From Haladaptatus sp. DJG-WS-42 (GTDB taxonomy: Archaea; Halobacteriota; Halobacteria; Halobacteriales; Halococcaceae): a stretch of DNA of 64,000 nt. Below are positions 4,014 through 13,697 of this stretch, piece by piece; the first letter of the stretch is position 1; each line of letters begins with the position of its first letter. The DNA lies in NCBI RefSeq assembly GCF_037198285.1, contig NZ_CP147243.1:186001-250000 (forward strand), given 5' to 3'. The translations under genes and the position numbers were made by a program. The notes below the pieces were generated by a model, which was not told the origin of the DNA, ran no database searches, and saw nothing but the letters and a program-made list of their open reading frames with translations.

Positions 4014-4079
4014 GAGCGCCGGTGTCTCGCGGAACGAAGTGACGCGAGGCTCGGGGCGCGAATGAAACGAGCGCCGGTG
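4014..4079 (+). repeat. Direct repeat of the tRNA-Gly 5' end flanking a hairpin
   Basis: The 11-mer GAGCGCCGGTG occurs at 4014-4024 and again at 4069-4079, where it is the 5' edge of tRNA-Gly. Between them is a hairpin with CTCGCG/CGCGAG arms around GAACGAAGTGA, the same loop motif seen in the modules downstream of the tRNA. This looks like an upstream relative of those modules. It could also be chance plus the common haloarchaeal GAGCGAAGTGAGCG-type repeat. The rest of 3799-4013 shows only the divergent promoter region of the stress gene. Confidence 0.5.
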
Positions 4080-4141
4080 GTCTAACGGCATGACTTTGGC
4101 CTTCCAAGCCAACGATCCGGGTTCAATTCCCGGCCGGCGCA
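4071..4141 (+). tRNA. tRNA-Gly (anticodon UCC)
   Basis: A complete cloverleaf can be drawn. The acceptor is GCGCCGG paired with CCGGCGC (discriminator A at 4141). The D arm is GTC...GAC. The anticodon arm is TTGGC-CTTCCAA-GCCAA with anticodon TCC at 4103-4105. The T arm is CCGGG-TTCAATT-CCCGG. CCA is not encoded. The last 22 bases (4120-4141) are repeated exactly at 4242-4263, and the last 14 recur at 4367-4380. Confidence 0.96.
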
Positions 4142-4263
4142 TTCTGCGAGGAACAACGTGACGAGCGGATGCGCTACGGCGGGAATTGTGAACCCTGCAA
4201 GTCGCAGCGCGCGAGCGAAGTGAGCGCGACCGTCTTGCTCTGGTTCAATTCCCGGCCGGCGCA
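4142..4263 (+). repeat. tRNA-3'-end module G1 behind tRNA-Gly
   Basis: A 122-bp unit following the tRNA directly and ending in an exact 22-bp copy of its T-arm/acceptor end (4242-4263). Inside are an inverted copy of the T-arm (GGGAATTG-tg-AACC, 4181-4194) and a hairpin with arms GCAAG (4197-4201) and CTTGC (4234-4238) enclosing TCGC/GCGA and a GAGCGAAGTGAGCG loop. It begins TTCTGCGA, as does module A3 behind tRNA-Arg. No ORF with credible codon use lies here; translations are the familiar spurious product of tRNA-like sequence. Confidence 0.8.
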
Positions 4264-4380
4264 CTCCCTGCGGTCGTTTGCCGCCCGACGTTCACCTCGC
4301 TTCGCTCGGTGAACTCCCGGAGAGACGAGGTCTCTCCGGCGTTCGCACCACTGACGCGGTGCTCACTCCCGGCCGGCGCA
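4264..4380 (+). repeat. tRNA-3'-end module G2 behind tRNA-Gly
   Basis: A 117-bp unit ending in a 14-bp copy of the tRNA-Gly 3' end (4367-4380). It contains three hairpins in series: GTTCACC/GGTGAAC (4290-4314), CCGGAGAGA/TCTCTCCGG (4317-4339) and GCACC/GGTGC (4345-4362). Its last part, GTTCGCA-hairpin-TGCTCACTCCCG, is the same design as the end of module A1 behind tRNA-Arg, with different stem bases. After 4381 the base composition turns AT-rich and leads into the foreign-looking ATPase gene. Confidence 0.75.
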
Positions 4381-4498
4381 TACCACAACCTCCCCTTATA
4401 GCGGTTTTCAGCAGTCACTATCGTGTAGGTCGAGATGTAGTTGCGAGGTTCGAGGTGAAACGAGAGTTAGGCTGTGGTATTTCCCGAAATGATTAGAG

Positions 4499-6118
4499 CT
4501 ACGGTCGTCCTCTAATTACAAGTCCAATACCTTCCCGATATAGACGAGGAATTTCATAGATACGATTACCATTATCATCCCGATCTGTCCTGAAGAAACC
4601 AATATCGACCATTCGATCTATTGCGTTTTTTGGACTTGGATCAAGATCCTCAAACATTGTATATAAATCGTCGTATGAATATTCTGCTGTCTTTTTTGTG
4701 TCAAATCTGTCAAAATGTTCCTTCAAATCTGGGAATTCGCTAAGATACGTATTCACCCGCTGATTTGAAACTGTGTTATACGCATCCCGTACAGAATATC
4801 CCTCTATTAACCGATCTTTAGGATGTTCCTCTTTTCCAATTTCTTCTCTTACTGCTCCATTACAGAACGAGATGAGTTCACGAGGATATTTCCCACCGTG
4901 TCCGTCTTTAATTCGTGTAGTCATCCAATCGAAAAGCTCCGCCTCTCGTTCACCAGGATATACAGTGTCCTCGAATACAGAATAAAAAATCTCTTTTTGA
5001 GATCCCTGGTCGAAATTTTCAACTGTTCCTACATCAATTTCTGTCCCGATTGAATTTTCCACATACTCTTTGACGGAGTCGGATTGGAGCATCCGTTTAT
5101 TCGTCATCTTTAATAGTTGTGAATCATCCCAATTTAGCTCAACTCTTTTGTCAGATACATGACTTTTATTCACGAAATTCAGTTCACTCCAAATATCTGT
5201 TCTGAGGAATATTTTCAGACGTATATTATCAAATTTTCCTAAAAACGTGAGTTGTGTTCGGAATAGAGCTTCAATAAGCTCTTTTCGCTTTTCTGGCTCT
5301 TTGCTCTCTAATTCGTCAATACGATCCAACAGAAGCCAGACCGTTTCATCGTTTTCGCTGAGCAAAGATTGTTCATTTTCTAATAAAAGCTCGGTATCAA
5401 ATACCCCATTTGATGAACCGATTTCGATTGAAAAATTCCCATAAGAAAGTTTCCCACTTGAAGGCGGGTCACCAATACAATATTCCCAGACTGTTTTAAA
5501 CACCGGAAGCAACCGCCAATCCTTCTGTTCATCTAATGCTCTAAGAACATTCCCGAGTTCTCCATCAGAAGTATACCCTGCTTCTCCCAACTTTTCAGCA
5601 ATCTTGACTCCAATGTAGATCTCCCAGAAATCTTCATACGAGAATTCATCTTGATTTTTAATCTTTTGTAAATTTCTGTTATCCAGGCTTCGGAGATCGT
5701 TTCCTCCAGTAGCTTTTATTATATGTGTGTTTTTGGGAAGATCCTCTCCCAGAAAATTCTCTGCTTGGTCTTTAAAGTCTGTGAATAAACGGAACAGGGC
5801 ACTTTTTCCTGAACCTTTAGGACCCAGAATGATTAGTGTATCTCTGTCAGAAATTTTGCCAAACCCTTGAGTTCGGACGAATCGCTTCGCCAATTTCTCT
5901 TCAGACTCAGCATCAACATTACCAAAATCAAGATCGTATAAATATTTGTTGTGATCAATCATACTTGTCAAAGTCACTGGAGTTATTTCAATTTTTCTGC
6001 TATAAGGTGTTAAACAAACCTTATTACGATGCTCTGACGCCCCTTCATAAATTAGGAAGTCGTAGTGTTGATAGAGTAACTGTGCTATTACGTTAACCCA
6101 GCCGTTGATAATATCCAA
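4499..6118 (-). CDS. P-loop ATPase, probably Sll1717-like, horizontally acquired
   Basis: A 539-residue protein with a clear Walker A (GPKGSGKSALF) near residue 100 and Walker B (VWLLLDRIDELE) near residue 265, followed by an arginine-rich helical part resembling STAND/KAP-type ATPases. The segment DFGNVDAESEE just ahead of the P-loop region fits the Sll1717 family, which is common in defence and mobile-gene neighbourhoods; that assignment is from memory of the family and is tentative. Codon use is far more AT-rich than any neighbour. The gene stands alone beside tRNA-Gly and its 3'-end repeats, so lateral transfer is likely. The true start may be the Met at about residue 52 (MIDHNKYLYD), since the first 50 residues look less protein-like. 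No integrase or partner gene is visible. Confidence 0.72.
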   Translation of the reverse strand: MDIINGWVNVIAQLLYQHYDFLIYEGASEHRNKVCLTPYSRKIEITPVTLTSMIDHNKYLYDLDFGNVDAESEEKLAKRFVRTQGFGKISDRDTLIILGPKGSGKSALFRLFTDFKDQAENFLGEDLPKNTHIIKATGGNDLRSLDNRNLQKIKNQDEFSYEDFWEIYIGVKIAEKLGEAGYTSDGELGNVLRALDEQKDWRLLPVFKTVWEYCIGDPPSSGKLSYGNFSIEIGSSNGVFDTELLLENEQSLLSENDETVWLLLDRIDELESKEPEKRKELIEALFRTQLTFLGKFDNIRLKIFLRTDIWSELNFVNKSHVSDKRVELNWDDSQLLKMTNKRMLQSDSVKEYVENSIGTEIDVGTVENFDQGSQKEIFYSVFEDTVYPGEREAELFDWMTTRIKDGHGGKYPRELISFCNGAVREEIGKEEHPKDRLIEGYSVRDAYNTVSNQRVNTYLSEFPDLKEHFDRFDTKKTAEYSYDDLYTMFEDLDPSPKNAIDRMVDIGFFRTDRDDNGNRIYEIPRLYREGIGLVIRGRP

Positions 6119-6217
6119 TTGATACCTTTGGCTCCGATCGAAGCGGTCGTACCCTTCGTAGGTATACGATCCAATGCTGTCAGGTCAGCCTGAGCCATTT
6201 GGTTCGTCCGAGAACCT

Positions 6218-6430
6218 TTAGTCTTTCATAGAAGGCCCCGCGGTGCGTGGGCGTTTCAATACGAGAAATTTCGTCCCGCCGCCGACGTACTCGATTGTGT
6301 CGGTGAGTTCCCACCCGTCGGCCCCCAACTCGTTCAGGACGTCTCTTGGGTCTCTCGCTTCTTTTCTCGTCGGTTCGCGTTCTGGTCGAACCGTTAGATA
6401 CTCCCACCCGCTTCCAGACTCGTCGCTCAT
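6218..6430 (-). CDS. DUF4177-type small protein
   Basis: A 70-residue acidic protein with the pattern WEYLTV...VLNELGADGWELTDT...GGTKFLVLKRP, which is the core of DUF4177, a family of short cytoplasmic proteins of unknown function. Host-like codon use marks the end of the AT-rich segment. It is divergent from the PHP gene and probably monocistronic. Overlapping frames on both strands lack this conserved pattern. Confidence 0.75.
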   Translation of the reverse strand: MSDESGSGWEYLTVRPEREPTRKEARDPRDVLNELGADGWELTDTIEYVGGGTKFLVLKRPRTAGPSMKD

Positions 6431-6512
6431 AGTGCTGCTCTCATTCGAATTTTAGTAAGCGTGGTGGCCACCACACAGTTATCCCGAATGACTGGGAACA
6501 CAGTAATACGCA

Positions 6513-7283
6513 ATGCTCCACGATTATCACGTCCACTCGAATTACTCGGACGGGCGCTTTCTTTTCCAGATGTTGCAGGCCGCAGAGCAAGCCGGACTGA
6601 AGGGAATCGGGTTTGCAGACCACTGTAACGTCTCAGAGCGCGAGCGGATGCAGGACTTGAAACATCTTCTTGGATTCAACTTAGACCAGACGTACGACCG
6701 ACGGCTGCGAGCGATAGAGAGCCTCAACGACCGCTTTGACGTCGAAATCTACAACGCAGTCGAGATGGACTACGACCCACGCGACACGGACGCGATTCGC
6801 GGATTTTTCAACGAAACCGACTTCGATTACACCATCGGGAGCGTCCACCACTTAGAGGACGTAAACGTCCACGTCGAGAGCTACTTCGGGAAGAAGTCGG
6901 AGACAGAGCGAAAGGCGCTCGTCAACGAGTACTTCAAAAAGCTCGTCGCGCTCGCAGAGTCAGAGCTTTTCGACATCGCGGCGCACGTCGATTTACTCGA
7001 ACGCAACCCGGCATTCCGTGGGATGGGGACGGACGAACACTACCACGCCGTCGCACGGGCGTTCAAGCGCTCGCGGACGGTTCCAGAAATCAACGCCGGA
7101 CGGGTGCTCACGGACTATGGGAAATTCCACCCGGTTCCAGGCTTCCTCGAAGTGTTCTGCGAACACGAGGTGCGCTTCACTGTTGGCAGTGACTCACACC
7201 GCCCAGAGGAGCTTGGCCCACGAGTGAAGAAACTGCGCACCTATCTCGAAGAAGAGGAACTCTCGCCGGTCTATCTCGTCTAA
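6513..7283 (+). CDS. PHP-domain phosphoesterase, histidinol-phosphatase-like
   Basis: A 256-residue PHP-superfamily metal hydrolase. It opens with DYHVHSNYSDG (metal ligands HxH), then FADHCN, then a segment with VHH and HVDLLER, and ends with a GSDSH motif, together supplying the usual metal ligands. Family members hydrolyse phosphate esters such as histidinol phosphate, but many are uncharacterised phosphatases. No his genes are near, so histidine biosynthesis is not implied. The stop codon overlaps the stop of the convergent next gene by 3 bp. Confidence 0.85.
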   Translation: MLHDYHVHSNYSDGRFLFQMLQAAEQAGLKGIGFADHCNVSERERMQDLKHLLGFNLDQTYDRRLRAIESLNDRFDVEIYNAVEMDYDPRDTDAIRGFFNETDFDYTIGSVHHLEDVNVHVESYFGKKSETERKALVNEYFKKLVALAESELFDIAAHVDLLERNPAFRGMGTDEHYHAVARAFKRSRTVPEINAGRVLTDYGKFHPVPGFLEVFCEHEVRFTVGSDSHRPEELGPRVKKLRTYLEEEELSPVYLV

Positions 7284-7660
7284 GCCTCGCCGAGGACTTT
7301 GCGAATGGCGGTTGCGACGTTGTCGAACGCCTGAATCGTGAGGCCGTCGGTCGTTGCGAACACGCCTTCACGGTCGGTGGTCACGCGGAGCAGGAAGCCG
7401 TTTTCGAAGGTGCGAATCGTGTACTTGTAATCGCCGAGTTCGGAGCCGCGGTAGGCTTCGCGTGTCGTCTTGAAACTGCGCCACTCGTTGCCGATGAATC
7501 CCGTAAGGTCTGCATCTTGTTCGAGGTCGTCGCGCAGATAGAGCTGGTCGAAGTCGTCGCGTGTGAAGTAGGTGACCGACCGAAGGCTGTCTCCCATTGC
7601 GGTTCGGCACGTTCGAACGATGACGTCAGCCGTGTCGGCTGAAAGCAAAGTGTTCTGCAT
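7280..7660 (-). CDS. Conserved haloarchaeal protein of unknown function (DUF7522-like?)
   Basis: A 126-residue soluble protein with mixed alpha/beta character, containing DSLRSVTYFTRDDFDQLYLRDDL and a later YTIRTFENGFLLRVTTDREGVFATTD stretch. I recognise the pattern as a widespread haloarchaeal family with no known function; the DUF number is from memory and uncertain. No catalytic motif or transmembrane segment is seen. The gene overlaps the PHP gene tail-to-tail and lies apart from the cyclase gene, so it is probably transcribed alone. Confidence 0.7.
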   Translation of the reverse strand: MQNTLLSADTADVIVRTCRTAMGDSLRSVTYFTRDDFDQLYLRDDLEQDADLTGFIGNEWRSFKTTREAYRGSELGDYKYTIRTFENGFLLRVTTDREGVFATTDGLTIQAFDNVATAIRKVLGEA

Positions 7661-7735
7661 TGGCTATATCATCATGATTTACCCATATAAATACGGTGGT
7701 CGGTGTGTTCCCTTGCCGCCGTCTGTCGAATCTGG

Positions 7736-8389
7736 TCAGTCGAATCGGGCCACTGCCCTGACGGGCGCACCGTCTGCGTCGGCGAGCGAGAGCGGGAACG
7801 CATCGAGGTGAAATCGGTCAGGCACGCGGTCGAGTTTGCACAGATTCTCCACGATGAGACAGTCGTGGCCGAGCAATGCGTGGTGAGCCGGGCTGCCGGT
7901 TGGCTCGCCCGCAGCCTCGTTCTGACTCGGCGTCGGGTCGGGGCTGAAGGCGTCGATGCCGACGTGAAGATTGCGGGTCGCACACCACTCCGCGACGGTG
8001 ACATCGAGGTACGGGTGGTCGAGGTAGGCGTCCGTGCCCCAGTGCGCGTCCCAGCCGGTGTGAAACGCGAGCATGTCTGCGTCAGCGACATCGGTCTCGG
8101 CTGGTAAATCCGCGAGCCGAATCCGGTCTCGAGCGCCGCGGTGGCGACAATCGACGCATACCGCCTCGAACGAGAACGTCGAGATGGGGAAGGTATCGAG
8201 CGTCTTGCCGTTCTTCTCGGTGTGGCTTGGCGCGTCGATGTGGGTTCCGGTGTGACTCCCAAAAGACAGCCCAGTCACGCGATAGCCGTCGATTTGGTAG
8301 ATGGCGTGGCCGCGGAACGTCACGGGTGGGTCGCCCGGATAGACGGGCATGCCGCCCGCAACTGGGTGCGTGAGGTCGATGGAAGTCAT
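7736..8389 (-). CDS. Cyclase family protein (kynurenine-formamidase-like metal hydrolase)
   Basis: A 217-residue member of the cyclase/KynB fold. It shows the start pattern DLTHPVAGGMPVYPGDPP and the hallmark metal-binding motif SHTGTHIDAPSH near residues 45-56. Family members are Mn- or Zn-dependent hydrolases acting on N-formylkynurenine or related amides and lactones; the substrate here is unknown. Its ATG overlaps the stop of the upstream threonine synthase gene by 4 bp (ATGA), so the two are co-translated. Confidence 0.86.
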   Translation of the reverse strand: MTSIDLTHPVAGGMPVYPGDPPVTFRGHAIYQIDGYRVTGLSFGSHTGTHIDAPSHTEKNGKTLDTFPISTFSFEAVCVDCRHRGARDRIRLADLPAETDVADADMLAFHTGWDAHWGTDAYLDHPYLDVTVAEWCATRNLHVGIDAFSPDPTPSQNEAAGEPTGSPAHHALLGHDCLIVENLCKLDRVPDRFHLDAFPLSLADADGAPVRAVARFD

Positions 8390-9561
8390 GTGTCTCCGAG
8401 TACCGTGGCGAGGTGTTCGTCCAGCTTCGCAAGCGGGACGGAAGGCGCGTCTGTCGCCGCCCCATCGAGTTCTTTGAAACCGGTTCCAGTAAGGATGAGC
8501 GCGACGCGGTCAGTTGCATCTACCTCACCGCGTTCTGCGAGTTGCCGGAGTCCAGCGAGCGCAACCGCGGAGGACGGTTCGACGCACAATCCTGCTTTGG
8601 TGGCGAGGTTGCCGGTTGCGTCGTGGATGGCGGCTTCTGACACCGATACGACCGCACCGTCAGTTTCGGCTGCGGCGGCGAGCACGCGATTGCCACTCGG
8701 TGGGTTCGCGTTGGCGATAGAGTAGGCGGCGGTTGGTTCGGGGTCGATTGGGCGAACCTCGTGGCCCTCGCGGAAGGCTTCTGCAATCGGGTCGCAGTTG
8801 GCGGCTTGCACGAAGTAGAGCCGCGGCAGGGCGTCGATGAGGTTTGCTTCCTTGAGTTCTCGCAGAGCTTTCCAGACGCCGCTTGCCTGCCCGCCGCTGC
8901 TTACCGGAAGACAGATTGCGTCGGGGACACCGTCAAACTGTTCTATGAGTTCGAGAGCAACCGTCTTTTGTCCGGCGACGCGCAGGGGTACGTCCGAGTT
9001 GACGAACTCGATGCCAAGTTCCTCTCCCAGTTCGAGACTGTCGAAATAGAGTTTCCCGTAGTCACCAGCCACACGAATGATTTCAGGCTCGTACTGGGAA
9101 ATCGCGGCGAGACGCTTTTCGGAAATATCGTCGGGGACGAGCACGACGCAGGGAAGGCCTGTAGCCGCCGCGTGCGCTGCTGTACTCATCGCCATGTTCC
9201 CGTGCGAGACGGTTCCGACGGCGTTCACGTCCCGCGCTTCGGCCGCCGCCACCGCAACGGCGCTCCCGCGGTCTTTGAACGTCCCAGTTGGGTTTTCGGC
9301 TTCGTCTTTCACCCACAGGGTACAGCCCGCGTACTCGTCGAGTCGGGGCGTTCTGAGGAGCGGTGTGTTTCCTGCCGCCCAGCCAAGGCCGTCAGTCGGG
9401 GCTGCGGGCAGCAGCGACGCATAGCGCCAAACGCCGCGCACATCGTCGGTTGGCCACTCGAACGCTGTCGTATCGGTGTCGAACCAAACTGGTTCGCCAC
9501 AATCACACCGGATGCGCGTCGCGTCGGACACTTCGTCGCAGGAATAACAGCGTGTGTTCAT
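8386..9561 (-). CDS. thrC: Threonine synthase (PLP-dependent)
   Basis: A 391-residue fold-type II PLP enzyme converting O-phosphohomoserine to threonine. The N-terminal CYSCDE...CDCGEPVWF is the small zinc-ribbon-like segment common in archaeal ThrC. The PLP lysine sits in ENPTGTFKDRGS, the glycine-rich phosphate loop is SSGGQASGV, and GTGFKELDG lies near the C-terminus. The frame can be extended two codons to a TTG, but the ATG giving MNTRCYSC is preferred. The related cysteate and 2,3-diaminopropionate enzymes look similar, so the substrate is inferred. It forms an operon with the cyclase gene. Confidence 0.85.
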   Translation of the reverse strand: MNTRCYSCDEVSDATRIRCDCGEPVWFDTDTTAFEWPTDDVRGVWRYASLLPAAPTDGLGWAAGNTPLLRTPRLDEYAGCTLWVKDEAENPTGTFKDRGSAVAVAAAEARDVNAVGTVSHGNMAMSTAAHAAATGLPCVVLVPDDISEKRLAAISQYEPEIIRVAGDYGKLYFDSLELGEELGIEFVNSDVPLRVAGQKTVALELIEQFDGVPDAICLPVSSGGQASGVWKALRELKEANLIDALPRLYFVQAANCDPIAEAFREGHEVRPIDPEPTAAYSIANANPPSGNRVLAAAAETDGAVVSVSEAAIHDATGNLATKAGLCVEPSSAVALAGLRQLAERGEVDATDRVALILTGTGFKELDGAATDAPSVPLAKLDEHLATVLGDT

Positions 9562-9600
9562 TACCAACCTGTACGCGAACCCACAGTATATGGGTTGGCC

Positions 9601-10365
9601 TCAGTCGGCGAGACCGTACCCGCGTTTGAACAGTGCAATATCGAGGGCGAGCACCGCGACGGTTGCACCCGTGAGCACCGCGAGGGCGAGGTTCGGGTCA
9701 ACGTCGTAGTAGTCGAGGAAACCGTAGCGGACACCACTCACCATGTACACCATCGGATTCGCGAGCGAAATCGTGTACCACGGTTCCGGGAGCGCGTCCA
9801 AGGCGTAGAAGATGCCCCCGAAGAACACAAGCGGGCGGATGATGAACTGGTTCATCACGGTGAGGTAGTCAAAGTCGCGCGCCCAGAGGCCGCCAGCGAC
9901 GCCGAGGCTCGCAAACAGCGATGGAATGACGACCATGAAGGCAACGAGATAGAGCGGGTGCTCGATGCCAACCGGCGTGAAAAACGCTCCCACGACGGAG
10001 ATGATGATGCCAATGATGACACCGCGAAGCGCACTCGAGGCGACGTAGGCAAACACCATCTGCGGGTAGCTCATCGGTGAGGTGAGCGTTTCGTGAATAT
10101 ACTCGTTCCACCGGCCGTGGAAGATGGAGAACGAGGCGTTCTCGAACGCATTCGAAATCGTGCCCAACACGACGAGGCCGGGGAGGATGAACAGGACGTA
10201 GGAAAAGTCACTGGTCGGACCGATGCGCTCGCCGAGGATGACGCCGAACACCGAGAAATAGAGGACGTTCGTGATGAGCGGTGGCATAAACGTGTTACGA
10301 GGCCGACGGACGTATCGGAGAATCTCGCGGCGCACGAGCGTCAGGAAGCCAGTAAATCGGCTCAT
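9601..10365 (-). CDS. ABC-2 type transporter permease
   Basis: A 254-residue six-helix permease of the ABC-2 (DrrB/NodJ-like) group, with the family segment FENASFSIFHGRWNEYIHETLTSPMS and a C-terminal NPMVYMVSGVRYGFL motif. It pairs with the ATPase encoded upstream, whose stop overlaps its ATG by 4 bp. Together they form a two-component exporter, probably moving a drug-like, lipid or polysaccharide substrate outward. Nothing nearby reveals the substrate. Confidence 0.9.
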   Translation of the reverse strand: MSRFTGFLTLVRREILRYVRRPRNTFMPPLITNVLYFSVFGVILGERIGPTSDFSYVLFILPGLVVLGTISNAFENASFSIFHGRWNEYIHETLTSPMSYPQMVFAYVASSALRGVIIGIIISVVGAFFTPVGIEHPLYLVAFMVVIPSLFASLGVAGGLWARDFDYLTVMNQFIIRPLVFFGGIFYALDALPEPWYTISLANPMVYMVSGVRYGFLDYYDVDPNLALAVLTGATVAVLALDIALFKRGYGLAD

Positions 10366-11333
10366 CGCTGTGCCTCCTGTTTTGCGCCCGCCGGTGGACG
10401 GTCGCCGTTTGTCGACTCTTGTCCGTTAGTGAGCGAGACGAACACCTCTTCGAGCGAGGTGCGAGAGATGTCTAAGTCCACGACCTCGTGGCCTGCGTCA
10501 TCAAGCGCGAGGAGGACGTCGGGGGCGACGCTTCCCGCTCGGTGAGCGCGGACGACGAGCCGTCCCTGTTTCAGTTCGACCGACTGGACGCCGTCTACGG
10601 CCACGTCGGGGGCGGTGTTCGGCGGGTCGCGCAGCGTGATTGTGATATTGTCCACACCCTGGTCCATGAGGTCGTCGGGGCTTGCGACGGTCACTTTCTT
10701 GCCTTCGTTCATGATGGCGACCCGGTCACAGAGGCGCTCTGCTTCCTCGATGTAGTGGGTGGTGAGCAAAATTGTCGTGCCCTCCTCGTTCATCTCGGTG
10801 ATGATGTTCCAGAGGTCACGCCGGAGTTGGACGTCCACACCCGCCGTTGGCTCGTCGAGAATCAGGAGGTCTGGTTCGGTGACGATGGCGCGCGCAAGGA
10901 GGAGTCGGCGCTTCATCCCACCTGAGAGCCAGTCAAAGCGCGTGTCGCGCTTGTCGTAGATACCGACCTTCTTGAGCGCGGCGTCCGCGCGCCGGGAGGC
11001 TTCTTCTTTGCCAATGCCGTGATAGCCCGCCTTGTGCATCAGCACTTCTTTGATGGGGAAAAACCGGTCGACGTTGAACTCTTGGGGCGCGACGCCGATC
11101 GCGTCGCGGGCCTGTTGGTAGTCGGCTTCTACGTCGTAGCCGAACACGCTGGCTTCGCCGCCGGTTTTGCGCACGAGGCCGGTGAGAATGGAGATGAACG
11201 TCGTCTTCCCCGCACCGTTTGGCCCGAGCAGGCCGAAAAACTCGCCTTGCTCGACGGCGAGGTCGAGTCCCTGCAACGCGTCTACGTCGCCGTAGGACTT
11301 TCGTAAGTTGTCTGTCTCAATCGCGAGAACCAT
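10362..11333 (-). CDS. ABC transporter ATP-binding protein (DrrA-like)
   Basis: A 323-residue ABC ATPase. Walker A is GPNGAGKTT, the signature is LSGGMKRRLLLARA, Walker B is DLLILDEPTAGVD, and the H-loop is TTHYIEEAE. The long C-terminal extension (about residues 225-300) with the EEVFVSLT segment is typical of DrrA/CcmA-type exporters. It is the first gene of the two-gene exporter operon, overlapping the permease gene by 4 bp. The last 20 or so residues are rich in charged and proline residues and may be a flexible tail. Confidence 0.92.
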   Translation of the reverse strand: MVLAIETDNLRKSYGDVDALQGLDLAVEQGEFFGLLGPNGAGKTTFISILTGLVRKTGGEASVFGYDVEADYQQARDAIGVAPQEFNVDRFFPIKEVLMHKAGYHGIGKEEASRRADAALKKVGIYDKRDTRFDWLSGGMKRRLLLARAIVTEPDLLILDEPTAGVDVQLRRDLWNIITEMNEEGTTILLTTHYIEEAERLCDRVAIMNEGKKVTVASPDDLMDQGVDNITITLRDPPNTAPDVAVDGVQSVELKQGRLVVRAHRAGSVAPDVLLALDDAGHEVVDLDISRTSLEEVFVSLTNGQESTNGDRPPAGAKQEAQR

Positions 11334-11393
11334 CTACCGACACGAAAAAGCTGGGCACAGTTAACCCGCACTACTTGGGTTGGGCTTGCCGCC

Positions 11394-12212
11394 TTAGAGT
11401 TCGATGCGTTCGACGATTTGGTCGCCGTCCGTGTGCGTATTGAGCGCGACGATGCGGACGTAGCCTTCCAGCCCTGAGCCACGGAGTTTCGCCTTGAGGA
11501 GGTTATCGACCTGATAGACTCCTGCAGCGTTGGTCATCTCGATTTCGACGGTGACTGCAGTCTCGTCACCCTCTTGGAGCGTGACCTTTCGAATTGCCTG
11601 ACTGGAGACGGTATTGATACCGCGCCCACCGCTCTCGTACGGGATGCGCGAGCGACCGTGTTCCATGTCAAGGGCGTCTGCGACGCGGATGACGCCTGCT
11701 TCGACCGTGAGTGGGTCTTCGACGGTGTGGTGACAGAGAATGGCGTGGAGGACTTCCGCCTTCACCTTCACCTGCTCAGTGATGGTGTCGTAGAACTCGG
11801 GGAGAACGCGGTCGAGAATGTCTGAGGCGAGTGGAATCGAGTAGTAGACGTGGTCGTCACGGTGGACGATGTGCCCGATGTCGTGTAACGTGGCAGCGAA
11901 GGCGATAATCACGGATTCGTCTTCTTCGGCGAGGCCCTGGTCGCCCGCGCCGTTGAACGAGATGCCGCCGCGCTTTAAGAGGTCGTAGAGGGTGAGCGCG
12001 CGGTCGCGGACGATTTCGATGTGCTTTGCGCCGTGGTCGTTGTAGCGCTTTCTCGCGACAGCGTTCACGTTCTGGGCCCGCAAAAGCGCCTGAATCTCCT
12101 CGTCGGTTTTGATAAAGGAGAGAACGCGGTGCAGTTTCTCGTCGGGGAACGAGTGGGCTGCACCCTGGTCGTACGATAGGATGTCACTCTCGCCATCTGG
12201 AAGGTCACTCAT
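11394..12212 (-). CDS. HD-domain metal-dependent phosphohydrolase
   Basis: A 272-residue protein with an HD-type core. KHIEIVRDRALTLYDLL supplies the first His, the HD pair lies in FAATLHDIGHIVHRDDHVYYS, and a C-terminal helical domain follows. HD hydrolases act on phosphate esters, often nucleotides; the substrate is not evident. A longer open frame reaches upstream into the peroxiredoxin gene region, but the extra 40 residues are Arg/Ser-rich shadow sequence. The ATG giving MSDLPDGESD is preferred. It lies about 50 bp downstream of the peroxiredoxin gene, possibly in one transcript. Confidence 0.85.
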   Translation of the reverse strand: MSDLPDGESDILSYDQGAAHSFPDEKLHRVLSFIKTDEEIQALLRAQNVNAVARKRYNDHGAKHIEIVRDRALTLYDLLKRGGISFNGAGDQGLAEEDESVIIAFAATLHDIGHIVHRDDHVYYSIPLASDILDRVLPEFYDTITEQVKVKAEVLHAILCHHTVEDPLTVEAGVIRVADALDMEHGRSRIPYESGGRGINTVSSQAIRKVTLQEGDETAVTVEIEMTNAAGVYQVDNLLKAKLRGSGLEGYVRIVALNTHTDGDQIVERIEL

Positions 12213-12262
12213 AGTGTACTGAACGCGGCGGAGCGAGAAAAAAACCTCGGGCGAGTGCGCGA

Positions 12263-12736
12263 TTACGCGTCGGCTGCGGCCTGCGCGACTTCGTCGTAGT
12301 TTGGTTCGACGCCGGGATCGTCGCTGACCCACGAGTAGGTGACGTCGCCGTCTGCGTTGATGACGAACACGGAGCGCTTTGCGACGCCGTAGACGCCGAG
12401 GCCGTCGAAGTCCATCTCAACGTTGAACGCTTCGATGATCTCGCGGTTCAGGTCGGAGATGAGGCCGAAGTTGAGGTCGTTCTGGGCGCGGAACTCGTTG
12501 AGCGTAAACGGCGTGTCGCGGCTGACACCGAACACTTCTGCGCCGACATCCTCGAACTGGCTGAGGTTGTCGCGGAACGTACACATCTCGTTGGTGCAGA
12601 CGCTCGTGAACGCGCCCGGGAAGAATGCGAGCACGAGTGGGGCGTCGTTGAGGCGCTCAGAGAGGTCGAACTCCTCGATGTCGCCGTTTGCTACCGGTGC
12701 GCTGAAGTCTGGTGCGTCGTCGCCAGTGTTGACCAT
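12263..12736 (-). CDS. Peroxiredoxin (AhpC/TSA, BCP/AhpE-like)
   Basis: A 157-residue thioredoxin-fold peroxidase reducing H2O2 and organic peroxides. The peroxidatic cysteine is Cys47 in PGAFTSVCTNEMCTF, and Cys52 five residues later could act as resolving cysteine as in BCP-type enzymes. It starts TGDDAPDFSAPVANG, the usual peroxiredoxin opening. It is divergent from tatA. The thioredoxin-reductase-like gene at 18999-20039 might belong to the same redox network, but that is inference. Confidence 0.92.
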   Translation of the reverse strand: MVNTGDDAPDFSAPVANGDIEEFDLSERLNDAPLVLAFFPGAFTSVCTNEMCTFRDNLSQFEDVGAEVFGVSRDTPFTLNEFRAQNDLNFGLISDLNREIIEAFNVEMDFDGLGVYGVAKRSVFVINADGDVTYSWVSDDPGVEPNYDEVAQAAADA

Positions 12737-12870
12737 TGCGTCTGGGCCTTACGGAGACAGTCAAAAGACGTTTGCGCTCTCGGCCAATCGCCCCGTCACA
12801 GACCAGTCAATCACGGGAGGGCTGTCGATTGCCTCACTTCTGGGAGGGTCTTGCCGGATGAGCAAAAAGC

Positions 12871-12880
12871 CTATATTAAA
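12871..12880 (+). promoter_or_regulatory. TATA box of tatA
   Basis: CTATATTAAA lies 24-33 bp ahead of the tatA ATG. In haloarchaea this spacing puts the transcription start at or next to the ATG, so the mRNA is probably leaderless. No Shine-Dalgarno sequence is visible in the gap. Confidence 0.6.
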
Positions 12881-12903
12881 CAGTAGGCAACGATGGGGTA
12901 GAG

Positions 12904-13254
12904 ATGCTCGACACAATCACTCCGCTGTTCCCGGGAATCCCGGGCGGGCCGGAACTGCTCGTCATTCTGTTCATCGCCATCCTCCTGTTTGGCGCAAACA
13001 AGATTCCAAAGCTCGCCCGCTCTACCGGGCAAGCGATGGGTGAGTTCCAGAAAGGCCGCGAAGAAGTCGAAGGCGAACTTGAAGAGATGCGCAACAAAGG
13101 CAAAGACGAGGCAACCGACACCGAAGCGGCTGACGCAGACACCACGGACGCCGACGCAGACAAGGCAGAAACGCAGGCTGCCTCGGAAGAAGCCCAGCCA
13201 AACATCGGCGCAGACGACGAGGAAGACGACGTCGAAGCCGAGAAAGAAAAGTAA
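12904..13254 (+). CDS. tatA: Twin-arginine translocase subunit TatA
   Basis: A 116-residue protein with a short N-terminal transmembrane helix (ELLVILFIAILLFG), the hinge GANKIPKLARSTGQAMGEFQKG forming the amphipathic helix, and a long acidic tail (Asp, Glu, Ala and Thr rich) typical of haloarchaeal TatA. It forms the pore-like part of the Tat machinery that exports folded proteins. That fits the several Tat substrates in this window: halocyanin, multicopper oxidase, protease, TlpA, LVIVD and DUF3179 proteins. No tatC is adjacent. Confidence 0.93.
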   Translation: MLDTITPLFPGIPGGPELLVILFIAILLFGANKIPKLARSTGQAMGEFQKGREEVEGELEEMRNKGKDEATDTEAADADTTDADADKAETQAASEEAQPNIGADDEEDDVEAEKEK

Positions 13255-13318
13255 AAGAGTAATCGTTTTTCTCTCTCACCCTCGACCTATTAGCGGACGC
13301 GCCGTGTCTGTATTTCGA

Positions 13319-13391
13319 GGGCGTGTGGCCTAGTGGATAGGGCAAGCGGTTCCTAACCTCTTGATCGCGGGTTCAAATCCCGTCACGCCCG
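13319..13391 (+). tRNA. tRNA-Arg (anticodon CCU)
   Basis: The acceptor is GGGCGTG paired with CACGCCC (discriminator G at 13391). The D arm is GCC...GGC. The anticodon loop is TTCCTAA with CCT at 13352-13354. The T arm is GCGGG-TTCAAAT-CCCGT. One mismatch (C-T) is present in the middle of the anticodon stem. CCA is not encoded. Copies of the 3' end recur at 13461-13472, 13574-13595 and 13676-13697. Confidence 0.94.
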
Positions 13392-13472
13392 CTTCGACCT
13401 CGTTAGCACTCGGTCTCGCGGGCGTGACGACGTTCGCAAAAGCTCCGCTTTTGCTCACTCCCGCCACGCCCG
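13392..13472 (+). repeat. tRNA-3'-end module A1 behind tRNA-Arg
   Basis: An 81-bp unit directly after tRNA-Arg, ending TCACTCCCGCCACGCCCG, a near copy of the tRNA 3' end. It holds GGGCGTGACG at 13420-13429, the exact reverse complement of the last ten acceptor-side bases of the tRNA (13381-13390). It also has a perfect 8-bp hairpin GCAAAAGC-tcc-GCTTTTGC at 13436-13454. The GTTCGCA-hairpin-TGCTCACTCCCG end is shared with module G2 behind tRNA-Gly. Confidence 0.8.
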
Positions 13473-13595
13473 TAAACTGTGTTGCGAGCGATGCGAGCAA
13501 CCAGTTGAGAACCGTGTGGGATTTGCAACCCTGCCAGCCGCAGCGCGAACGAAGTGAGCGACCGTCTGGCTCTGGTTTGAATCCCGCCACGCCCG
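13473..13595 (+). repeat. tRNA-3'-end module A2 behind tRNA-Arg
   Basis: A 123-bp unit with nested stems AACTG/CAGTT and TTGC/GCAA (13475-13506), an inverted T-arm copy GGGATTTG-c-AACC (13518-13530), a hairpin with arms GCCAG (13533-13537) and CTGGC (13566-13570), and a direct T-arm/acceptor copy (13574-13595). It matches module G1 closely in its second half. The outer stem pair changes from A-T in G1 to C-G here, a compensatory change. Confidence 0.8.
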
Positions 13596-13697
13596 TTCTG
13601 CGACGAACGAAGGTGAGGAGCGAACGGGCCCGGAGATTCGTAACCCTACGAGACGAGCAAAGCGAGTCTCGGTCTGGTTCGAATCCCACCATGCCCG
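13596..13697 (+). repeat. tRNA-3'-end module A3 behind tRNA-Arg
   Basis: A 102-bp unit starting TTCTGCGACGAAC, like G1. It has the inverted T-arm copy GATTCG-t-AACC (13635-13645), a hairpin CGAGAC/GTCTCG (13649-13671), and a final copy GGTTCGAATCCC plus ACCATGCCCG (13676-13697). The direct and inverted copies match each other (GATTCG with CGAATC) though both differ from the resident tRNA. The tract ends here, and 13698-13733 holds the 3' flank of the cupin gene. Confidence 0.78.

Follow-up and report, generated by a model that had tools for sequence, protein, structure and literature searches.

The window studied here is a stretch of 64,000 nucleotides (G000:C1:186001-250000) in the 2.78-Mb genome of Haladaptatus sp. 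DJG-WS-42, which we call G000, and it carries two arrays of short repeat units, each directly behind a tRNA gene. Two units (G1 and G2) follow tRNA-Gly(TCC) and three (A1, A2 and A3) follow tRNA-Arg(CCT) (Table 1). Two sister species, G001 and G002, serve for comparison. The original prediction, drawn from the letters of this region, held that at least two classes of module occur at both tRNA genes, with tRNA-derived ends that match the local tRNA and with hairpin arms that differ and still pair. Its units, frames and arms are all present as it described them. For example, TTCTGCGA-GAAC opens both G1 and A3, and the frame AACCCT(G/A)C...TCTGGTT is common to G1, A2 and A3, enclosing the arms GCAAG/CTTGC, GCCAG/CTGGC and CGAGAC/GTCTCG, while GTTCGCA...TGCTCACTCCCG is the frame common to G2 and A1. 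We refer to the first group as class T and to the second as class S, and the two classes proved real.

Table 1. Host tRNA genes and repeat units of the window, in window positions unless a G000:C1 position is given
Feature	Position	Strand	Parts	Evidence and comparison
tRNA-Gly(TCC), host of the first array	4071..4141	+		ARAGORN and Rfam
Unit G1, class T	4142..4263	+	5' hairpin region; inverted T-arm 4180-4194; core 4191-4245; direct tRNA 3'-end copy 4242-4263	sequence; fold z -2.9; core match G000:C1:190191-190245
Unit G2, class S	4264..4380	+	hairpins 4290-4314 and 4338-4367; closing tRNA 3'-end copy	model R2 match G000:C1:190338-190367; fold alone z -1.6
tRNA-Arg(CCT), host of the second array	13319..13391	+		ARAGORN and Rfam
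Unit A1, class S	13392..13472	+	inverted acceptor strand; S hairpin 13429-13459; tRNA 3'-end copy	best model R2 match, E 8e-11
Unit A2, class T	13473..13595	+	core 13527-13577	ortholog present in G001
Unit A3, class T	13596..13697	+	core 13642-13679	absent in G001

Anatomy of the two classes

Read from the tRNA end, a class T unit is made up of a 5' hairpin, an inverted T-arm (GGGATTTGAA), a core of the form nCARGGAGC-[stem-loop]-GCGACYGnGG, a direct T-arm (TTCAAATCCC), and the acceptor 3' strand up to the discriminator base. Class S has an inverted acceptor strand, a hairpin (GTTCGCAAAC..GTTTGCTCAC), the motif TCCCG, and the acceptor strand. It is the inverted copy, of T-arm or acceptor, that shuts the folded unit. 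Class S modules can nest between the T-stem and acceptor parts of a class T unit, sometimes three consecutively. Four of the five units of the window fold better than dinucleotide shuffles (z -2.9 to -3.7), the exception being G2, which is weak alone, and in an Rfam scan of the units all curated families other than tRNA stayed below threshold. Both classes occur again in a third array of G000, behind tRNA-Gly(CCC). The T core of that array is identical to the core of G1 at 53 of 55 positions, the 5' halves are unrelated, and the tRNA-derived parts are those of tRNA-Gly(CCC) itself.

A tandem GA/GA internal loop, of the sheared kind, recurs in every hairpin type. In the 3' flanks of the three sister genomes it is found 25 times on the + strand and 21 times on the - strand, compared with 0-2 occurrences for each of the other symmetric dinucleotide mismatches, and the signal fades 400-700 nt out (in a set that was partly selected for class S). 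We do not claim a kink-turn (K-turn) for this loop because the adjacent 3-nt bulge is absent. Tandem-GA hairpins also occur in tRNA 5' leaders, including the one at about 4025-4050 of the window, and there they always lie on the sense strand (9:0 and 13:0). As a guide to the strand on which the structure acts, a targeted count of G-U versus A-C mismatches gave a weak excess, 23 versus 12 for hairpin I and 16 versus 9 for the T stem, with controls that lean likewise. For class S the count was 2 versus 5, in 276 cells only 2 hold G-U, and an open-search version of the comparison was dominated by chance stems.

Copies of the tRNA end and their pairing

To see how general the arrangement is within the genome, we searched the sequence on either side of each of the 43 distinct tRNA genes recovered in G000, counting as a copy any match to a gene's own last 13 nt with at most one mismatch and within 400 nt downstream. 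Such copies, up to about 22 nt long, were found behind 22 of the 43 genes, while the controls gave 1 of 43 upstream, 0 of 1752 beside other tRNAs, and none in shuffled sequence. When inspected for own-end copies and model matches together, about 31 tRNA genes of G000 have units and several have none. A set of 200 tRNA loci drawn from many genomes gave about 152 copies, of which 139 lie within 400 nt of the tRNA, and 142 of 198 loci have 1-5 copies per tRNA, some of the single copies being due to chance. The units measure 60-250 bp, are gene-free, and therefore leave no room for an integrase gene. In the trailers L223 and L224, some direct copies have one extra T-loop base (TTCAcAATC, TTCAtAATC) and are seemingly no longer T-loop-like.

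The tRNA-derived parts follow the local tRNA, as was predicted, and this holds both in a permutation of the arms and in counts of own versus other bases. The inverted arm forms on average 2.71 of 5 pairs with the local T-stem, compared with 2.06 when arms are permuted (standard deviation 0.086; the highest of 2000 permutations reached 2.37). Among tRNAs with the same anticodon in different species, the base of the unit's own tRNA outnumbers the other base by 153 to 14 in the acceptor strand, 101 to 13 in the T-stem and 56 to 9 in the inverted arm, these counts not being independent of one another. The T-loop pair (U-A or C-G) is intact in 54 of 54 cases and tracks A versus G in the tRNA T-loop. 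A single case illustrates how closely the parts move together: at tRNA-Val(CAC), G000 and G002 differ jointly in the T-stem, in the direct copy within the unit (down to an unpaired acceptor base) and in the inverted arm, while their 5' hairpins are nearly identical.

The covariation test suggested by the original prediction was run for both classes. In T and in S alike the observed score was reached by none of 500 shuffles, and slid registers scored lower, these controls removing shared ancestry only in part. Within the T core, for example, 17 of the 31 hairpins have G-C and 11 have A-U at pair 16-40. The proposal that the modules are kept by pairing constraint thus stands as far as covariation goes, and what does not stand is its separation from correction at the DNA level, by gene conversion or template switching, because acceptor bases that lie unpaired still follow the tRNA and G-U pairs are scarce in class S stems. 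Within class T units the copied acceptor strand takes no part in pairing yet matches its own tRNA, so that selection for pairing would be insufficient by itself, and gene conversion or re-formation from the tRNA would be needed in addition.

Distribution, gain and loss

Two covariance models were used for genome searches, and the copy numbers from these searches are lower bounds. Model R1, for class T, was built from 31 simple T hairpins of the three sister species, chosen by hand and not an exhaustive sample of T cores. In G000 it gave 29 matches at an expectation value (E) below 0.1, and all 29 prove to be in tRNA 3' trailers. Those that at first looked like orphans belong to the intron-bearing tRNA-Trp, tRNA-Pro(CGG), a second Asp unit and the displaced trailer of tRNA-Lys(CTT). 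The best 29 R1 loci from other genomes are likewise all behind tRNAs (26 by ARAGORN and three intron-bearing ones by Rfam). R1 matches 229 of 242 haloarchaeal genomes, representing 70 of 74 genera, and outside the class, in the rest of the phylum, it matches one genome weakly (E 0.008). One match on an 828-kb Natronorubrum replicon lies behind a tRNA-Gly on that same replicon.

Model R2, for class S, was built without the TCCCG end. Its best 17 matches in G000 are in tRNA trailers, and the weaker ones include two sites without explanation; an S match 1.4 kb from tRNA-Ser(CGA) belongs to a displaced array of that gene. The S pattern was found in Halobacterium, Halorussus, Halorhabdus, Halosimplex, Natronomonas, Haloarcula, Salinibaculum and Haloprofundus, and in most cases a tRNA immediately precedes it. 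Five haloarchaeal loci with the pattern have no tRNA according to ARAGORN. Two of them (L097 and L104) resemble unit arrays with a tRNA that went undetected or fell outside the sequence, and at the other three (L035, L036 and L095) the link to a tRNA is not established. Bacterial matches to the S pattern, which we take as chance, in no case adjoin a tRNA, and the one viral match was also judged to be chance. A search of phages returned essentially tRNA matches only. Overall, the matches fall almost exclusively in tRNA 3' flanks. The original prediction had named two results that would speak against it, no excess of matches at tRNA 3' flanks and no covariation beyond shared ancestry, and neither search nor covariation test refuted it.

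Comparison with the sister species shows that units are gained and lost. A1 is absent from G001, where the tRNA abuts the sequence that follows A1 in G000, a clean junction. Behind tRNA-Ser(GGA), G000 has a composite unit of 203 bp bounded by 19-bp direct repeats, and G001 is without it, while behind tRNA-Gly(GCC) the sister species share the same 5' hairpin and have different cores. Within arrays, the tRNA-proximal copy carries 0.60 mismatches and the distal copy 1.37, and in 31 arrays versus 8 it is the proximal copy that is the less diverged. In the window, the distal unit A3 has the most diverged copy of the tRNA end (3 mismatches in 13).

Larger insertions are found in these trailers as well. 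In tRNA-Lys(CTT) an element with a tyrosine-recombinase-like gene is integrated (L224, G000:C1:110400-113000), and the old trailer units have been displaced by about 4 kb. In the region behind tRNA-Ser(CGA) (L247 60-1700, G000:C1:2020109-2021749), an insert of ~1.2 kb interrupts a T unit. It has one open reading frame of 377 amino acids, to which no family was assigned, and on both sides of it stand 26-bp direct repeats that correspond to the 3' half of that unit (AGCGACTGAGGTTCAAATCTC..GCA). The insert appears to have entered the unit and not the tRNA, as if the copy acted like an attachment site.

Parallels and possible origin

The original prediction knew of no description of such an arrangement. 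In its general form the arrangement has a precedent, since tRNA-linked repeats (TLRs) have been known in E. coli since 1978; they number 22 at ten loci, with 1-5 per locus, finish with 18-19 bp that match the end of the upstream tRNA or rRNA gene exactly, and have no settled function (PMC8144298). Examples are the 178-bp repeats of tyrT/tyrV, with RttR, and those at arg and rrn loci (PMC8144298). In the units of tyrT/tyrV and argQ/Z/Y/V of strain MG1655 (L237, L243) we find a common core, CGTTGC..GCAACGrCCCGAAGGGCGA..GAGT, which has an inverted arm before it and the direct copy of the 3' end after it. This arm is largely matched to its locus (GGGGAAGGAT at tyrV, GGGAGGAT at argV), with 8-10 of 13 pairs over all units, each alone being weak to modest. 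At rrfB our own-end scan did not find the copy, probably because the annotated end and the published repeat are out of register. The haloarchaeal units resemble these repeats in lying directly behind tRNA genes, in numbering 1-5 per locus, in copying the upstream 3' end, and in having an inverted arm that matches the local T-stem around a core. They differ in occurring at about 31 tRNA genes of G000 and in nearly the whole haloarchaeal class, and are set apart by the tandem-GA signature, the 5' hairpin, the class S modules and the composite units. A search with R1 at tyrT/tyrV gave no match, and the core sequences are unrelated at the sensitivity used; we therefore claim a likeness of architecture and not of descent. 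As far as our partial coverage of the literature shows, the haloarchaeal units have not been described.

Other known elements are less similar. The MITEs, PATEs and SMRs of Haloquadratum are also short, gene-free, palindromic, haloarchaeal, and gained or lost between strains, but they have fixed element ends and insert in other mobile elements or at dispersed sites (PMC3119063). We rejected identity with MITEs, which have element-specific terminal inverted repeats and a short target duplication, whereas the ends of the units vary with the local tRNA. The REP and BIME families share with the units that they are small hairpin repeats outside genes, and identity was again rejected, REPs being dispersed and the units confined to tRNA trailers. 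Tyrosine-integrase attachment (att) sites in tRNA genes likewise involve a direct repeat of the tRNA 3' end, but the units are without integrase or cargo and are too short for the usual circular intermediate.

The reading that we favour, and hold to be somewhat likelier right than wrong, is that the units are haloarchaeal TLRs, that is, structured trailer units that originate at tRNA 3' ends, stay in register through concerted evolution, and are probably dispensable passengers. Several observations favour an origin at the tRNA 3' end: the junctions of gain and loss, a copy that is exact as far as the discriminator base, the polarity within arrays, and cores common to different tRNAs. A unit would originate by insertion or duplication aimed at the tRNA 3' end, leaving the tRNA intact, and would be lost by recombination between direct copies. 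Gene conversion may hold the direct copy in register with the tRNA, and pairing constraint or palindrome-correcting template switching may hold the inverted copy. Read-through transcription would make the units putative structured trailers, which may be freed as small RNAs. We propose that units persist because insertion behind a tRNA is harmless. Several tRNAs are without units and tRNA-Lys(CTT) has lost its trailer, which disfavours an essential role in maturation, and the units are thus probably dispensable. Some observations weigh against this picture. No T unit was found away from tRNA genes in the R1 search of G000, nor on viral contigs, so that a free mobile form is unseen; no mobilising enzyme was identified for the units; insertion and deletion are indistinguishable at most loci; and the tandem GA, being on the + strand in class T and on the - strand in class S, gives conflicting indications of the acting strand.

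On one hand, the units might be selected for what they do as RNA. A role of this kind is possible because the core is strand-fixed and conserved, and because stable trailer-derived RNAs have been reported in H. volcanii (PMC3544259, PMC3432209). In its strong form, which we consider rather unlikely, the trailer hairpin would be a functional element of the pre-tRNA in cis, serving processing, termination or a regulatory small RNA, and the T-arm copy, by mimicking the tRNA end, would lead processing enzymes to cut the unit free. The tRNA-independent core GGAGC...GCGACY, covarying on a fixed strand with a sheared tandem-GA loop, fits this idea, as do the class-wide presence of units, the strictly sense orientation of the 5'-leader hairpins, and the finding that E. 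coli TLR RNAs are processed and that those of rrn loci bind CsrA (PMC8144298). However, several tRNAs do without units and those of tRNA-Lys(CTT) are displaced, units are gained and lost fast, the class T acceptor-strand copy tracks the tRNA though unpaired, and in class S the tandem GA is antisense and G-U is almost absent.

On the other hand, the copies might stem from DNA processes of different kinds. It is conceivable, and in our view distinctly unlikely, that bacterial and haloarchaeal TLRs are one mechanistic kind of hairpin cassette, in which a single-stranded fold rebuilds a double-stranded T-arm site and a tyrosine recombinase or HUH enzyme inserts it at tRNA 3' ends, like integron attC hairpins. 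If this were true, the inverted arm would be the recombination site, which would explain its match to the local tRNA, the freshest copies being proximal, and the cargo gene in the tRNA-Ser(CGA) unit. Very unlikely, we think, is an origin solely by mutation, in which the palindromic T-arm causes slippage and template switching during replication, and these make and correct the copies with neither an insertion mechanism nor a function; the T-arm does come close to a palindrome, arms remain matched even at unpaired bases, and class S stems change almost strictly among Watson-Crick pairs, but a core unrelated to tRNA is common to different tRNAs and different families, two Gly tRNAs have the same core with unrelated 5' halves, and the tandem-GA mismatch is kept and not corrected. 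Archaeal integrases prefer tRNA 3' ends (PMC8371274) and an element with an integrase-like gene sits at tRNA-Lys(CTT), which might suggest that the units are decayed att-site remnants of ordinary integrative elements. Such remnants would be expected to be heterogeneous and to contain gene debris, whereas the units are small, intact, and alike in shape at about 31 loci and throughout the class, and we regard this origin as extremely improbable.

For E. coli TLRs, function and origin are unsettled in the literature covered. A class-wide archaeal counterpart at hundreds of loci, polymorphic in gain and loss, with a definite fold and with arms that follow the tRNA, opens what was an E. coli curiosity to tests by haloarchaeal genetics as well as comparative genomics. 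It is also relevant to the coexistence of tRNA genes with integrating DNA, to concerted evolution, and to the nature of the trailer-derived small RNAs of Haloferax. We expect specialists to be surprised that so regular a feature of haloarchaeal tRNA genes is seemingly undescribed, within the part of the literature covered.

Directly behind the Gly array of the window lies an AT-rich gene (4499-6118, - strand) for a 539-aa ATPase with similarity to ORC-CDC6-like and NACHT proteins, and PADLOC matches it to the candidate defence family PDC-M28C (E 8e-19).

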